Notes under the pieces: generated by a model
The model's database searches: none
What the model was told of the DNA's origin: nothing
Seen by the model: the letters and a program-made list of their open reading frames with translations, nothing else
Part shown: in pieces, positions 16,162 to 23,762 of the stretch
Position numbering within the stretch: the first letter of the stretch is position 1
How the letters are laid out: each line of letters starts with the position of its first letter
IMG/VR virus record: IMGVR_UViG_3300032293_000326
Location: 1 to 25,274 of that record
Length of the DNA stretch: 25,274 nt
Reading direction: 5' to 3' (one strand)
Origin: a virus
Position numbers and translations under genes: made by a program

Positions 16162-17511
16162 TTAGAAGGTAGGTGCGCTTAGACCTGTGCCTGAGATGAT
16201 CGAGGCTGCAAGTGGGTAGCGCTCTGCTGTGAATGCGGCGTAGCCGTATACGACAGACTTGATTGTTAGGTTTCCAGCGCCTGTCGCATCGAAGCGAAGT
16301 GCGAATGGTGATCCTGGTTGTTCCCATAGATGAGCTTCGTTTGCTGTTACGCAATAGATTTCATCTTGGTTTGTTGTAGTTCCGTATGTTGTTCCGATGC
16401 TTGCATCGGTGATGATTGGAAGTCCAAGCATCTGGTAGCCGGAGTTACCGTATGCAGGTGCTCCGCCAACGCCTACTGCGTTTAGTGGGCCATTCGCTGC
16501 TGGCACTACTAGCGGACGGTTTGTGCTGTCCACAGCTGCAAGCAAGAATGCTAAACGACGTGGGTGTACTACCCAGTGTGTAGGTGATACGAATGCGTTT
16601 GTCTGGATCTGCTGGATCGCATCTGCGAGCTTTGGATATAGCAGACCGACTGTTGGCGCTGTTGATGTGAATGTAACTGCATTTCCGCCTGATGCACGAA
16701 GGCCCTTGATTGTGCCGGCTGTTCCTGCACCGTTAAGGATTTGTGAATCAAGTGTTGTATGCCATGACTTAATCAAGTCGGCAATTACGAATGAATCAAT
16801 TCCTGTTCCGCGCTCTAGAGCCTGGCGAGAAATATCTTGCTGGCCTGCGATTGTACGAACGTTGATTGTCAAAAGTGTGTCGTCAATATCAGTTTCTGAT
16901 ACTGCGTCGTTCTGTGTAACTTGTACAGCAGTCGAACTTCCGGTTGTCATGCGAGAAATATTCAGGGTCATTCCACTTTGTGGAAGTGCCATCTTGTTTG
17001 TCGCGAAGTCTGCGAATGGACGTCCTGCGCGTGCTAGGGGTGCTGCTAGTTCCACTAAATATTGTGGAATTACAAGACCTTCGAACTGTGGTGTGCCAAC
17101 ATCGCGGCGCTCAATTGATTCTTCACGCATGTGGCGTGCTAGACGCTCGTTTGCTGCATAGTCATTTGAGAATTGCGCGTTGAATGCATCCTTTACGAAT
17201 GATGTTCCTGAGTTGATTGAGTATGTGCGCTCTTCGCGTGTCACTGTTGCTCCGCCAACCTTTGGCATTGCTACATCGGCTACAGCTGCGCGGATCTCGT
17301 TTGTCTTTGCATCTGCATCTGCCTGTGCCTTCATTCTTTCAATCTTTGAATCAAGTGTGCGTGATTCTTCAACAAGGGTATCTACCTTTGCTGTTTCATC
17401 TGCTGTTAAGTCGGTGCGATCTTCGGTTGCTACTGCTTCCAAGATTGCGTCCATCTCTGTCTTAACTGCATCACGACGCTCGATCAATTTGTCAAGGAAA
17501 GTCTTTGACAT
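16162..17511 (-). CDS. Major capsid protein, HK97 fold, 449 aa
   Basis: The N-terminal 75 residues are a charged helical coiled coil (scaffold-like delta domain, KLIERRDAVKTEMDAILEAV onward), to be removed by the protease. Then the HK97 core: FVKDAFNAQF, the segment EGLVIPQYLVELAAPLARAGRPF, WHTTLDSQILNGAG, THWVVHPRRLAFLLAAVDS and a final YGYAAFTAERYPLAASI. The start ATG follows AGAAGGAGATC, an efficient site. Abundant virion shell protein. Confidence 0.95.
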   Translation of the reverse strand: MSKTFLDKLIERRDAVKTEMDAILEAVATEDRTDLTADETAKVDTLVEESRTLDSKIERMKAQADADAKTNEIRAAVADVAMPKVGGATVTREERTYSINSGTSFVKDAFNAQFSNDYAANERLARHMREESIERRDVGTPQFEGLVIPQYLVELAAPLARAGRPFADFATNKMALPQSGMTLNISRMTTGSSTAVQVTQNDAVSETDIDDTLLTINVRTIAGQQDISRQALERGTGIDSFVIADLIKSWHTTLDSQILNGAGTAGTIKGLRASGGNAVTFTSTAPTVGLLYPKLADAIQQIQTNAFVSPTHWVVHPRRLAFLLAAVDSTNRPLVVPAANGPLNAVGVGGAPAYGNSGYQMLGLPIITDASIGTTYGTTTNQDEIYCVTANEAHLWEQPGSPFALRFDATGAGNLTIKSVVYGYAAFTAERYPLAASIISGTGLSAPTF

Positions 17512-17604
17512 TTATTTGATCTCCTTCTGAGTTGGTTTTGTGTCAAGGTGGTGGCGGTGGTTTTCGCGGCGCTTTCAGGGTGCGAATGTCGCTCCGACTT
17601 TGTC

Positions 17605-17625
17605 TCTGTTGGGTTTTCCAACAGA
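17605..17625. promoter_or_regulatory. Hairpin in the capsid leader
   Basis: An 8-bp perfect stem, TCTGTTGG (17605-17612) and CCAACAGA (17618-17625), with a 5-nt loop, lies 4-24 bases beyond the protease stop and about 94 bases before the capsid start. No T-tract follows on the minus strand. It could be a weak attenuator, a processing site, or a structure that protects the abundant capsid mRNA. Confidence 0.55.
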
Positions 17626-17628
17626 ATT

Positions 17629-18939
17629 CTATTTTGTGTTATTTACGATTGCTTTAGCTAGGCGAAGGGAGATTGATCGCGGTTGCGCGTCTTCGATCAT
17701 TGGTTGATCTTCTAGCATTGGTTCATCTTCTGGCATGTCTTCTCCCGGTGCTTCTGGTTGTATTCCAAGAAGGGTTTCAAGGGTTGTCTTGCCTTCTCCT
17801 AGATATTCGTATGATTCGTCAATTTTATCTAAGATCGCCTGGATTACAAGCAGGCTTTCACCTGTGATCTCGCGGCCTTCTTTGATGGCTTGACGAGCTG
17901 CTGTGATCTGCTCGCGTGCTTCGACTGTTGTTGTCGGATAGGCCGGGTAAGTTACAACGCTTACATCGCCGTCTGCCAGCGATAATTCTGTGAGGGTGCG
18001 CTCGGTTCTTCCTTCGTTCCACTTCTGGCGAATCACTCTGAATGCGAAACTCATCTGGTCTACATCTCCGCGTTCTACTAATGTGTAGAGATCGCGTGCT
18101 GCCTGTGTATCTGGAAGATCTGCGTCCATGTAGAGACCGGTTTCATCTTCTTTAAGTCGAAGCGTTCCGTTCTTCGTTCTGGCCAAAGGTAATCCTTCGT
18201 GGTTAATTAATAACCTCACGTCTGGTGTTTCTGTCAGGGTCTTTCGGAATGCGCCGGGTGCGATTCTTTCGATGAATGGAAGTGGCACGCTGTCGTCGTT
18301 AAATACTGCTGCGTATCCAGAGAGGCGCATAGTTCCGTCGTCTGCCTGGCGTGCTTCTACGTTCTTAATTGTAAAAGTCCGGCGTTCAATTTTCTTTGTC
18401 ATTTTGCTCCTTGAGTCTTCCTCTGCGTCGAGTGCGTCTATTTTTCTTTGCGCCCAGTCTTGTGCTCGGTCGCTGAAGTTGGAATCTCCGCCCCATAAAA
18501 GCCAGGCGACTAATCCTGCGCCTGGATATCCTGGATCGGATTGGTTGCTGTTCTTCGGTGCTTGCCCATCAACTTTATGCCTGGCGAACCAGGGGGCCAT
18601 CTTCCTTACTTTATTTTCAGTTATTCTTCCTGCTGCCATCTCGCGTGCTTCACGTTTGGTTGCATCTGTGAGCCCATCTCCGCCATAGCCTTCTTGCAGA
18701 TATTTCAATCCGCGTTCTGCGTTTGCTCGAATAAATGCTGGCGCACTCAGATCTACTGCCCTGCTACTTACTTCTCCGCCTGGTTCCATGTCTTCTGCAA
18801 TCGAAACTGCGACCATCTGGTCAATTGCATCTTGCTTGTTTTCGTGGCATCCGATTGTCGTATATGTGCCGTCGGATTCTTCTTTGACGGTTGCCCATGC
18901 TGCGCAGTCGCTCTGGCTATCGCTTATGAAATATGGCAT
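17629..18939 (-). CDS. Capsid maturation protease with extra N-terminal domain, 436 aa
   Basis: Residues 1-55 (MPYFISDSQSDCAAWATVKE, CHENKQDAIDQMVAV) and 65-160 (ITENKVRKMAPWFARHKVD, GYPGAGLVAWLLWGGD) form an N-terminal part seen fused to phage proteases; its role is not established. The protease of the HK97 prohead class starts near residue 180 (MTKKIERRTFTIKNVE) with SGYAAVFND, the His in LLINHEGLPLA (H247), the Ser in DVDQMSFAF (S297) and acidic residues in TELSLADGDVSVVTYPAYP. It cleaves the capsid scaffold domain. An internal ATG with a strong ribosome binding site may make the protease alone. Confidence 0.9.
   Translation of the reverse strand: MPYFISDSQSDCAAWATVKEESDGTYTTIGCHENKQDAIDQMVAVSIAEDMEPGGEVSSRAVDLSAPAFIRANAERGLKYLQEGYGGDGLTDATKREAREMAAGRITENKVRKMAPWFARHKVDGQAPKNSNQSDPGYPGAGLVAWLLWGGDSNFSDRAQDWAQRKIDALDAEEDSRSKMTKKIERRTFTIKNVEARQADDGTMRLSGYAAVFNDDSVPLPFIERIAPGAFRKTLTETPDVRLLINHEGLPLARTKNGTLRLKEDETGLYMDADLPDTQAARDLYTLVERGDVDQMSFAFRVIRQKWNEGRTERTLTELSLADGDVSVVTYPAYPTTTVEAREQITAARQAIKEGREITGESLLVIQAILDKIDESYEYLGEGKTTLETLLGIQPEAPGEDMPEDEPMLEDQPMIEDAQPRSISLRLAKAIVNNTK
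18400..18412 (-). promoter_or_regulatory. Internal ribosome binding site and start inside the protease gene
   Basis: On the minus strand AAGGAG (18412-18407) stands 4 bases before ATG (18402-18400), codon 180 of the frame, exactly at the point where the conserved protease begins. A product from here would be 257 residues, the usual size of free prohead proteases. Codons before it encode a charged linker (DAEEDSRSK). Confidence 0.65.
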
Positions 18940-20331
18940 TTATTCCACCTCATAAACCGATGCTGGATCTGCTGGATCGATCGTTGAAACTTGCTGTAGT
19001 TGGCTGCTTGGTACGCCTGTGTGTGTCATCGCTGGCAATCCTACGGCTTCTGTTACTGCCTTTGGATCGAAGCCGACTTGGATCAGAGCTGCTGCTATCT
19101 CTGCGCGTAGCTTGAGTCCTACGTCGCGTGCGTCTGCTGCGTCGATGTTCTGTAGTGGCACTCGGTACTGATCGCCTGCTTCGCCTAGTGGTGCTAGATC
19201 TTCTACGGATCGCACATCGTTTAGGGATAGGAAGCCTTCGCGCAATCCCTTTGTGTACGCATCGAATCGCTCTAGTGTCGTTCCGCGTAGTAGTGCGTCC
19301 AGATTGAATTTAATAAATCCTTCTGGTTCTGGAAGTAGGGTCGAAAGTGCTTGTTCCAGTCTTTCCAATAATGGGCGCAGGCTGTGCTGTACGAAGGAAA
19401 GGTTCTGCGCTTCCACGCTGGCGAATGACATTGCGCCGGCGACCGGGTGTCCGAGAAGGCTTAGTGGCACTCGGAATAATCTGGCGATGTCTTCTACGTT
19501 GAAGCGCCGGGCTTCTAGTAGCTGTGCGTCTGCTGCGTTGAGTGTCAGCGGACGGAAGGTTGCTCCGCCTGAAAGGATTCCGATCTTGCCTGCTCTGTAT
19601 GGGCCTGTGTGGGTGATGTTCCAGTCGCGACCTATATCGCTTGCTTGCTCTTCGGTTAATTCGTTTGGTACTTCGATCACTCCGCCTGGGTTTGCCGCGT
19701 TGCCGAAGTACGCAGCTGCGTATGTGTCTGCTGCCATTGCTGCGCCGATTGTCAGACGAGCTGCGCCGATTGGCCCTAGACCGTATAACGATCCTGGCAA
19801 ACGGAACATCGGAATGTGAAGCATTTCCTTAGTTGTCAAAATTCTAGAATATGTTCCGACCGAATCGCGCATTTTGTAAACGATTGGTTCGCCTGGTGCT
19901 GGTCTTTCAATTCGAACGTCATCTGGGTGGATGCAATAAAGTTCTATCACTTCGTCCATGTCGTCACGCACTGTCAAGATGAATGCGTTTCCATGAATGT
20001 TCAGTGATGAAATTACTTGCTCAAAGAATTCCAGTCTTGTTGCTTCTGGGTTTGGGCGGTTGATCCACTCTGGCTGTTCTCCGAATGCTGATACATAAGA
20101 GATTCGGTTTCTTCCTCTTCGCACATATGCGCCAAGTGGCAGTGATGAAATTGTGTCGCCTAATAATCTTACGCAGGCATAGACCGTTGACATGCGGATC
20201 GCTGAGTCTGGAGTTACTTCGATTCCTGAAGGAGCCATATACGCCGGGCGTCCAGGGATCAATGGCTCAACCCATTGGCTGTTGTTGGTTCGCTTCTGCT
20301 CTGCTGCTTTTATTCTTTTCGATAGACTCAT
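18940..20331 (-). CDS. Portal protein, HK97 type, 463 aa
   Basis: The N-terminal pattern SAIRMSTVYACVRLLGDTIS, followed by SLPLGAYVRRG and EFFEQVISSLNIHGNAFI, and later FNVEDIARLFRVPLSLLG are hallmarks of HK97-family portals. The C-terminal third is helical and ends in a low-complexity tail. The dodecameric portal sits at one capsid vertex, is the packaging channel and docks terminase and connector. ATG overlaps the stop of the 46-residue gene (TGATG). The downstream protease starts immediately after its stop. Confidence 0.95.
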   Translation of the reverse strand: MSLSKRIKAAEQKRTNNSQWVEPLIPGRPAYMAPSGIEVTPDSAIRMSTVYACVRLLGDTISSLPLGAYVRRGRNRISYVSAFGEQPEWINRPNPEATRLEFFEQVISSLNIHGNAFILTVRDDMDEVIELYCIHPDDVRIERPAPGEPIVYKMRDSVGTYSRILTTKEMLHIPMFRLPGSLYGLGPIGAARLTIGAAMAADTYAAAYFGNAANPGGVIEVPNELTEEQASDIGRDWNITHTGPYRAGKIGILSGGATFRPLTLNAADAQLLEARRFNVEDIARLFRVPLSLLGHPVAGAMSFASVEAQNLSFVQHSLRPLLERLEQALSTLLPEPEGFIKFNLDALLRGTTLERFDAYTKGLREGFLSLNDVRSVEDLAPLGEAGDQYRVPLQNIDAADARDVGLKLRAEIAAALIQVGFDPKAVTEAVGLPAMTHTGVPSSQLQQVSTIDPADPASVYEVE

Positions 20332-22014: not shown

Positions 22015-22444
22015 GTGATCGCTGCATTAATTCCTGGATGCGTGTTTGTGCTTGGACTTCGGCTAGTCCTAGTCGCGATCTTTCAACCGGGTTGAATGCG
22101 ATTAGTGAAAGCATGTTTGTGATCTGATAGTCCAATTGTCTAAGTGCTACGCGATCTCTCCATTCGCCACCGCGAAATACTACGGCGCGTAATTGGATTC
22201 GTTCATCCATAGTTTCGCAGAGCATCATCACTTGCTCGATGTCTGTCGTAGGCGAGATCCATGCGCGTCCTGCTTGCCAGATTCGTTCCCACATCTTTGT
22301 GCCTTCTGGCCCTAGTGGTCGCAGTGGATCTGGCGTGTGTTGCGCCATTGGCAGAGCTATTACTTTGTTCTTATCTGGCAATGGTCGCTTACCTGGGTTC
22401 CCCAATTTACGTTTCTGTTCTATTGGTTTAGGTGGATTAGCCAT
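22007..22444 (-). CDS. Terminase small subunit, P27-like, 145 aa
   Basis: The N-terminus KPIEQKRKLGNPGKRPLPDK is the signature of the P27-type small terminase subunit. Then come LGPEGTKMWERIWQAGRAWI, a helix with TTDIEQVMMLCETMDERI and a C-terminal helical region with GLAEVQAQTRIQELM. It recognises the packaging initiation site and recruits the large subunit. It overlaps the methyltransferase gene by 8 bases (ATGGCTAA), so translation is coupled with that gene. Confidence 0.92.
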   Translation of the reverse strand: MANPPKPIEQKRKLGNPGKRPLPDKNKVIALPMAQHTPDPLRPLGPEGTKMWERIWQAGRAWISPTTDIEQVMMLCETMDERIQLRAVVFRGGEWRDRVALRQLDYQITNMLSLIAFNPVERSRLGLAEVQAQTRIQELMQRSRG

Positions 22445-23762
22445 TTTCGCTTCCTATGAAATCGTATGTCTTTCCAGTGAGTTCATTGATTGGTTGAACT
22501 CCGGTTAGCTGCTGCCATCGTTTGCAGATTACATCGGCATAGATTGGGTCAAGTTCTACGATCGCTGCTTTCATTCCTAGTGAATGAGCTGCGATGAGTG
22601 TCGATCCTGATCCGCCAAATGGATCCAGCACTAGCGATTCGCTGTTTGCTGAATTGCTTAGGATTCTGGTTATCAAGTTTACTGGTTTCATCGTTGGATG
22701 TTCTGAGTTCCGACGTGGTCTTGGTTCTCTGATTATCGTTGATGTGCTTCGTGCTGTTTCAATAATGTTTACGAGTTCTGTTTTGCTTAGGGTTTCTAGT
22801 TCCTTTGTTGCGAAGTCTAGAACTGTTGAATCGTTGAATGGCCCGTACCAGGGATGTGCTGCGCCTGGTTTCCATCCGTAGATGATTGGTTCATGTTGCC
22901 AGTTGTAATCCTGGCGGCTAAGTACGAAGTTGTCTTTTACCCAAATCAGTATTTGTTTTAGCATCCATCCTGCACCGGAAAGTGTCGTTCTGAATGCTTG
23001 ACCACTTGAGTCTGCGTGGCAAACATAAATCGGGCATCCTGCTTTTGCGTTCTGATACATCGCTGCGTAGACCGCGAGCAGGAAGGATTCGAATTCTAAT
23101 TCTGTCATTGCGTCGTTCTGGATTGTTAGTCCTTCACTTGTTCCGCCTGTGTATGCGACGTTGTATGGTGGATCTGTGAAGATGCAATCTGCCAGTTTGT
23201 TATCTAGCGCCTTTGCCAGGATCGCTGGATCGGTTGAGTCTCCGACCACCAATCTGTGTGGCCCTAGAATCCATACGTCGCCTTCGATGCTGTGCGCGTT
23301 GCGTGGTTTAGCTGGTGCTTCATCTAGATCGCCGTCCATTGGTATTTCCTCGACCGGCATTTTAAGAATCTCTGCGATGGCTTCTGCGCTGTAGCCTGCG
23401 TCGCTTACCAGTTCTGGATCTACGTTTACGAGCTGCGAGATCATTTCGCGAAGTGCTTCTTCGTCGTATGTTCCTAATTCGGCTGTGCGGTTATCGGCTA
23501 GTGCGAATGCTTTGGCTGTGCTGTCGTCATCGTCTGTCCAGACGACCGCGATCTCTGTCCAGCCAAGTTGCTTCGCTGCTTTCCATGTGTGGTTGCCGGC
23601 GATGATGGTTCCGTCGCTGTGTCTGGCCACCACCGGCTTTCGCTGTCCGAAGCGTTCTAGCGATCGGGCTACGGCGGCCACGTCGCCTATGCGTGGGTTT
23701 CCTGGCAGTGGATGCAGATCGTCGATCGGCGTTGCCAGAGCTTGCAGGTTTTCATTGATCAT
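22437..23762 (-). CDS. ParB-like domain fused to a DNA methyltransferase, 441 aa
   Basis: Residues 1-110 are a ParB/sulfiredoxin-like N-terminal domain (LHPLPGNPRIGDVAAVARSL, TIIAGNHTWKAAKQLGW, ALADNRTAELGTYDEE). The C-terminal methyltransferase has catalytic TDPPYN (196-201), EHPTMKP (354-360), the SAM-binding motif LDPFGGSGST (379-388) and ELDPIYAD, in the order of a beta-group enzyme. DPPY suggests N6-adenine methylation. No partner restriction enzyme is present. It may protect or mark phage DNA. The start has an AAGGGGG site after a 169-bp noncoding gap. Confidence 0.93.
   Translation of the reverse strand: MINENLQALATPIDDLHPLPGNPRIGDVAAVARSLERFGQRKPVVARHSDGTIIAGNHTWKAAKQLGWTEIAVVWTDDDDSTAKAFALADNRTAELGTYDEEALREMISQLVNVDPELVSDAGYSAEAIAEILKMPVEEIPMDGDLDEAPAKPRNAHSIEGDVWILGPHRLVVGDSTDPAILAKALDNKLADCIFTDPPYNVAYTGGTSEGLTIQNDAMTELEFESFLLAVYAAMYQNAKAGCPIYVCHADSSGQAFRTTLSGAGWMLKQILIWVKDNFVLSRQDYNWQHEPIIYGWKPGAAHPWYGPFNDSTVLDFATKELETLSKTELVNIIETARSTSTIIREPRPRRNSEHPTMKPVNLITRILSNSANSESLVLDPFGGSGSTLIAAHSLGMKAAIVELDPIYADVICKRWQQLTGVQPINELTGKTYDFIGSENG

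Follow-up and report, generated by a model that had tools for sequence, protein, structure and literature searches.

A conserved internal start in a prohead protease gene of a freshwater phage points to a fused and a free form of the protease

In phage lambda, Nu3 is made from an internal start in C. The protease C and the scaffold Nu3 of lambda are encoded by one gene, and gp5 of Pseudomonas phage MD8 is a single-gene fusion of protease, scaffold, and capsid (PMC8508860). The lysA gene of mycobacteriophage Ms6 encodes Lysin384 and Lysin241, and its internal in-frame start with a consensus Shine–Dalgarno (SD) sequence has been demonstrated experimentally (PMC3111421). A search of the available literature found no nested starts in prohead proteases. 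The window analysed here is a stretch of 25,274 nt of a freshwater phage (IMG/VR record IMGVR_UViG_3300032293_000326, positions 1–25,274). It carries a 436-aa ORF on the minus strand (17629–18939) immediately downstream of the portal gene, and the major capsid gene comes next. The features of the locus are as follows:

18940–20331, minus strand: portal protein, upstream neighbour (PF04860, E 5e-85)
18945–18951, minus strand: SD for the start of the full-length protein, GAGGTGG, with 5 nt between it and the ATG (from the sequence)
17629–18939, minus strand: full-length ORF, 436 aa, N-terminal modules and S78 prohead protease
18766–18939, minus strand: N-terminal bbba module, residues 1–58 (AlphaFold2 and phrog_80)
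18445–18756, minus strand: helical N-domain, residues 62–165, ARHKVDG ... AWLLWGGD (phrog_2859 and AlphaFold2)
18407–18412, minus strand: internal SD, AAGGAG (conservation)
18400–18402, minus strand: internal start codon ATG, codon 180 (conservation and the N-termini of stand-alone proteases)
17629–18402, minus strand: predicted free prohead protease, 257 aa (Pfam and TIGR01543)
16162–17511, minus strand: major capsid protein, downstream neighbour (PF05065, E 8.7e-15)

The full-length ATG at 18939 abuts the portal stop codon. Its SD is weaker than the internal SD and differs among relatives. A preliminary description of this DNA had placed an AAGGAG at 18412–18407, four nucleotides before an ATG at codon 180, and these coordinates proved exact: the spacer to the ATG (18402–18400) is CAAA.

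The model PF04586 (Peptidase_S78) matched residues 193–344 (E 1e-43, model positions 2–158 of 165), and TIGR01543 (HK97 proheadase) matched residues 206–344 above its cut-off (E 5e-33, positions 3–140 of 142). The candidate catalytic residues H247 and S297, whose role we assume from knowledge of the family, are invariant across 50 aligned relatives. The stand-alone proteases of RHph_TM3_3_14B (a Rhizobium phage), Labrenzia phage vB_LagS-V1, and ctekg1 have N-termini that align with residue 180–181, and in Mycobacterium phage Typha the protease starts some ten residues ahead of the codon-180 position. These N-termini and the structural model place the internal start at the domain border, so that its product would be a complete canonical protease. 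The earlier suggestion that the ATG lies where the protease begins thus agrees with both the predicted border and the stand-alone proteins. The free form is predicted from these matches to be an HK97-type prohead protease. The C-terminal peptide R-x-ISLRLAKAIVNNTK, downstream of a highly variable acidic stretch, is conserved (17632–17667, minus strand) and is possibly an encapsidation or capsid-binding tail.

Pattern searches of IMG/VR matched at least 600 stretches, and from each search the 80 best loci were examined. Among these best loci, a first set contained 53 distinct junctions (51 ATG and 2 GTG), every one preceded by AAGGAG, and the enlarged set showed AAGGAG-N4-start in 66/66 distinct window-clade junctions (63 ATG and 3 GTG). 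The Met at the internal start was replaced solely by GTG-encoded Val. Homologues carrying the same fusion therefore keep the SD and an ATG or GTG, as the comparative check proposed in the preliminary description had demanded.

Constraint was analysed in 57 representatives with less than 92% nucleotide identity. Synonymous-site constraint had its gene-wide maximum at codons 176–181 (z 6.9 against the gene's own windows); because the relatives share ancestry, z values are descriptive and not probabilities, and the counts given here are not independent events. The codon of Arg-177 is AGG in 57/57, a codon that accounts for 6% of the Arg codons in these genes, and the Ser at the junction is encoded by TCA in 53 of 54 cases. 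On a tree constructed without the junction region, AGGAG underwent 0 changes in the 57 representatives, third codon positions averaged about 12.5, and 16 other conserved Arg codons changed 6–29 times each. The fewest changes among the 1242 12-nt windows of the gene were found in AGGAGCAAAATG. The residues flanking the site are variable on both sides, and an in-frame codon was gained or lost just 3′ of the ATG. Predicted RNA folding around codon 180 was the weakest of 136 windows (−3.6 versus a mean of −10.9 kcal/mol). In all 57 representatives, predicted pairing with the anti-SD favoured the internal over the full-length start (means −7.3 and −5.2). No promoter-like TA[TG]A[AC]T was present within 80 nt upstream in 77 distinct window-clade sequences. 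An in-frame internal AGGAG-type SD with ATG or GTG was absent from the 22 other window genes that were scanned. A scan of genome contigs found 2 relatives only. Comparison of the relatives shows selection on the site as an internal ribosome binding site.

It is very likely that the gene has two working in-frame starts and yields a long protein and a free protease, the latter probably in larger amounts. From conservation and constraint, which support the proposal of a fused and a free form made through a strong internal start, we strongly infer that both proteins are made. Both initiation events would occur on one mRNA. Ribosomes entering past the portal stop codon would produce the 436-residue protein with the bbba module, the helical N-domain, and the protease, and ribosomes binding AAGGAG would begin at codon 180 and release the free 257-residue protease, probably the more abundant product. 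The free form, in excess, may perform the bulk of the maturation cleavage. The fused form may have a separate role in the prohead, in which a smaller share of the protease would take the N-terminal modules to a specific site or interaction partner.

Other explanations of the junction were weighed against the two-start reading. Selection could act on the protein sequence S-R-S-K-M, either as a linker or as a point of self-cleavage, with the short form arising by proteolysis; self-cleavage of prohead proteases is already established, and the Arg is invariant in the window clade (R177) and nearly invariant at the junction of a sister clade (R236). However, the codons AGG and TCA are fixed beyond what the residues require, the Met gives way to nothing except GTG-encoded Val, and the neighbouring residues vary, including the codon gained or lost just after the ATG, and we consider proteolysis improbable. 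Synthesis of the short form alone, with an idle upstream start, would suit the anti-SD duplex, which is predicted to be stronger at the internal start in 57/57. Against this, the full-length start has its own SD and an ATG or GTG in 57/57 representatives, and the N-region is in frame with the protease. The changes at codon positions 1/2/3 are about 3/1.7/11.5 in the N-region and 2.8/1.5/13 in the protease, and from this resemblance the N-region appears to be translated. An idle upstream start is thus very improbable.

The SD-like sequence might also make ribosomes pause between the two domains, or contribute to a frameshift signal, without any initiation. Intragenic SD-like sequences can slow ribosomes and this one stands at a predicted domain border, but a pause does not account for the conservation of a start codon and its 4-nt spacing, including the exchange of ATG and GTG. 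The +1 frame is closed immediately in 51/57 representatives, and in 33/57 the −1 frame reaches a stop within 5 codons; the absence of a common open frame downstream argues against frameshifting, which was ruled out at this site. Pausing or frameshifting in place of a start has an even slighter chance. Gene fusion is a plausible origin of the arrangement because the stand-alone proteases start at exactly the codon-180 residue, and the same coincidence would be expected if the site were a neutral relic that retains the old start signals of the protease. Neutral relics decay, whereas AGGAG has not changed on the tree against about 12.5 changes per third codon position. This constraint refutes a neutral relic as the sole explanation, and we give it practically no weight.

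The N-terminal 179 residues had been described as a different, conserved-looking domain. Conservation of the motifs ARHKVDG and AWLLWGGD among relatives was confirmed, but the model divides the region into two modules, bbba (1–58) and helical (62–165). The AlphaFold2 model of the full-length protein had a mean pLDDT of 79.5 and a pTM of 0.42. The block pLDDT was 75–94 for the bbba module and mostly 89–96 for the helical domain, whose long terminal helix reaches residue 179; confidence drops at about residues 171–190, and the β-rich protease follows. Profile phrog_2859 (function unassigned) matched residues 62–164, and positions 1–61 of phrog_80 matched the bbba module. The helical N-domain was matched by phrog_2859 in 66/66 members of set A3 (E 4.6e-14 for the window member). 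No Pfam or NCBIfam model matched the 179 residues, and a PDB profile search gave no match; DUF2188 appeared only at E 0.036, in 2 members.

The helical module is also present in front of other head proteases and of protease-capsid fusions, and in Limnohabitans phage DC31 it lies ahead of an XkdF-type protease. Outside head cassettes, it was found as a stand-alone ORF of 105 aa on a Microbacteriaceae MAG contig (L313, 1498–1815), where the neighbouring genes, judged by eye, resemble replication genes. Since it occurs before varied proteases and as a stand-alone ORF, the helical N-domain is, by its distribution, a mobile module that is frequent before head proteases and not confined to them. The stand-alone ORF weakens a purely head-specific targeting role; the N-domain may be a targeting tag, an adaptor, or a cargo.

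Further modules were observed in the same gene. The Tudor-like module Hva1_TUDOR (PF11160) is inserted at different positions or absent: in the window clade it follows the protease, in the C-terminal part of the ORF (L134, L076, and other relatives of ~505 aa), and it is N-terminal in other relatives (residues 144–194 of the L229 fusion; L223 is also involved). In proteins of the phiPsal1 type, a Cys-rich module (ACGNCMFF...FCERW...YCNAW) separates the bbba from the helical module (for example, at residues about 60–112 of L001 3809–5263). An adjoining gene in L227 is annotated as 'high potential iron-sulfur protein'.

Pontimonas phage phiPsal1 and its relatives form a sister clade with the same fusion and about 40–45% identity to the window protein. 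The junction codon in 46 representatives is TTG (35), GTG (4), ATG (2), or a Lys codon (5). The junction Leu is TTG in 35/35, and TTG makes up 35% of the Leu codons. This usage indicates that the junction conserves an NTG codon and not a residue. In the enlarged set, 50 of 56 distinct junctions have NTG; 47 of these have an SD of at least 4 nt, and the remaining 3 are GTG codons whose SD is weak. In the other 6/56, GTG and its SD lie 15 nt upstream. The strongest synonymous constraint in the sister clade falls on NGT-AGA-(A/C)T and not on the start codon. TAGA[AC]T occurs within the coding sequence in 58/58 distinct sequences (for example, L231 4489, phiPsal1); it is preceded by TGn in 49/58, and its end is 37 nt from the NTG in 50/58. 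This element is a probable internal extended −10 promoter of the actinobacterial type, and, if so, transcription from inside the gene would offer the sister clade another way to make the free protease. An actinobacterial host of the window phage is suggested only by the host of phiPsal1 and the Microbacteriaceae MAG.

In a third lineage, the helical N-domain opens a single ORF in which protease and major capsid protein are fused, as in Roseobacter CRP phages and Synechococcus phage S-CBS1. In the sample of 45 representatives of these marine relatives, NTG follows the N-domain in 31/41, often behind AAGGAG or AAAGAGG, and ATG stands at the start of the capsid domain in 43/44, with an AAGGAG- or GAGGA-like sequence before it. 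The third lineage showed no synonymous-constraint peak at the internal starts, where the conserved elements are the NTG and the SD-like sequence, so its support is weaker; in S-CBS1, the scan used detected no SD-like internal start. In related lineages, such starts sit where fused head modules meet.

A structured RNA was found in the capsid-gene leader of the window clade (17515–17631, minus strand), lying between the stop codon of the protease gene and the capsid start. It comprises a variable hairpin and, after it, a long-range helix that encloses an inner stem; the strands AAG-CGGAG, CACCC, and GCGCCG are invariant. Covariation is strong in 37 aligned relatives: 95% of the pair cells were formed, 13 of 20 pairs had compensatory changes, and 0/500 shuffles scored as high. 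An Rfam search gave no match, and searches of phiPsal1-clade and marine-fusion loci did not detect the RNA. It is possibly a cis-regulator or an mRNA-processing element of capsid expression. Elsewhere in the window, a ParB-like nuclease domain is fused to a DNA methyltransferase (22437–23762, minus strand; phrog_498 and phrog_8071).

Phage annotation assigns one protein to each ORF, and many freshwater phage genomes appear to conceal a second, standard-sized protease within a longer gene. If both forms are made, capsid maturation would use a mixture of tagged and untagged protease, a possible means of controlling head assembly. The codon-level signature of fixed AGG, ATG/GTG exchange, and unfolded RNA provides a simple metagenome screen for nested starts. 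We also speculate, as a rather unlikely extension, that the protease is a vehicle whose minority chains bring interchangeable N-modules into the prohead as cargo or a portal-vertex tag, the nested start (and the promoter-like element of the sister clade) setting the ratio of loaded to empty protease. The modules would then be the bbba, helical, Tudor-like, and Cys-rich ones, and several lineages would have evolved starts at module borders that tune head-protein stoichiometry.

Compared with known systems, the free form is a complete member of the HK97-type prohead proteases (PF04586; TIGR01543) encoded between portal and capsid genes, and the window gene adds an in-frame N-region of 179 residues with a conserved internal start between the two parts. 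Ahead of its Pfam capsid domain, the capsid protein of the window carries about 155 N-terminal residues of its own, as in HK97. The preliminary description had compared the gene with lambda C/Nu3, and the principle of a nested start holds, a head-protease gene giving a long and a shorter in-frame product in each case. The polarity is reversed: the short product of lambda is the C-terminal scaffold, whereas that of the window is the protease, with a complete S78 domain and not a scaffold lacking protease. The third lineage resembles MD8 gp5 in fusing head modules in one ORF; the window differs in its separate capsid gene and in the conserved start between N-region and protease. The window gene shares with Ms6 lysA an in-frame internal start led by an SD, which in the window clade is conserved at the nucleotide level. 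In Ms6 this start frees the C-terminal part as a second protein, and the start in the window would do the same; the product is a lysis enzyme in Ms6 and a head protein here. Among the precedents considered, Ms6 lysA is the closest for which there is experimental proof.
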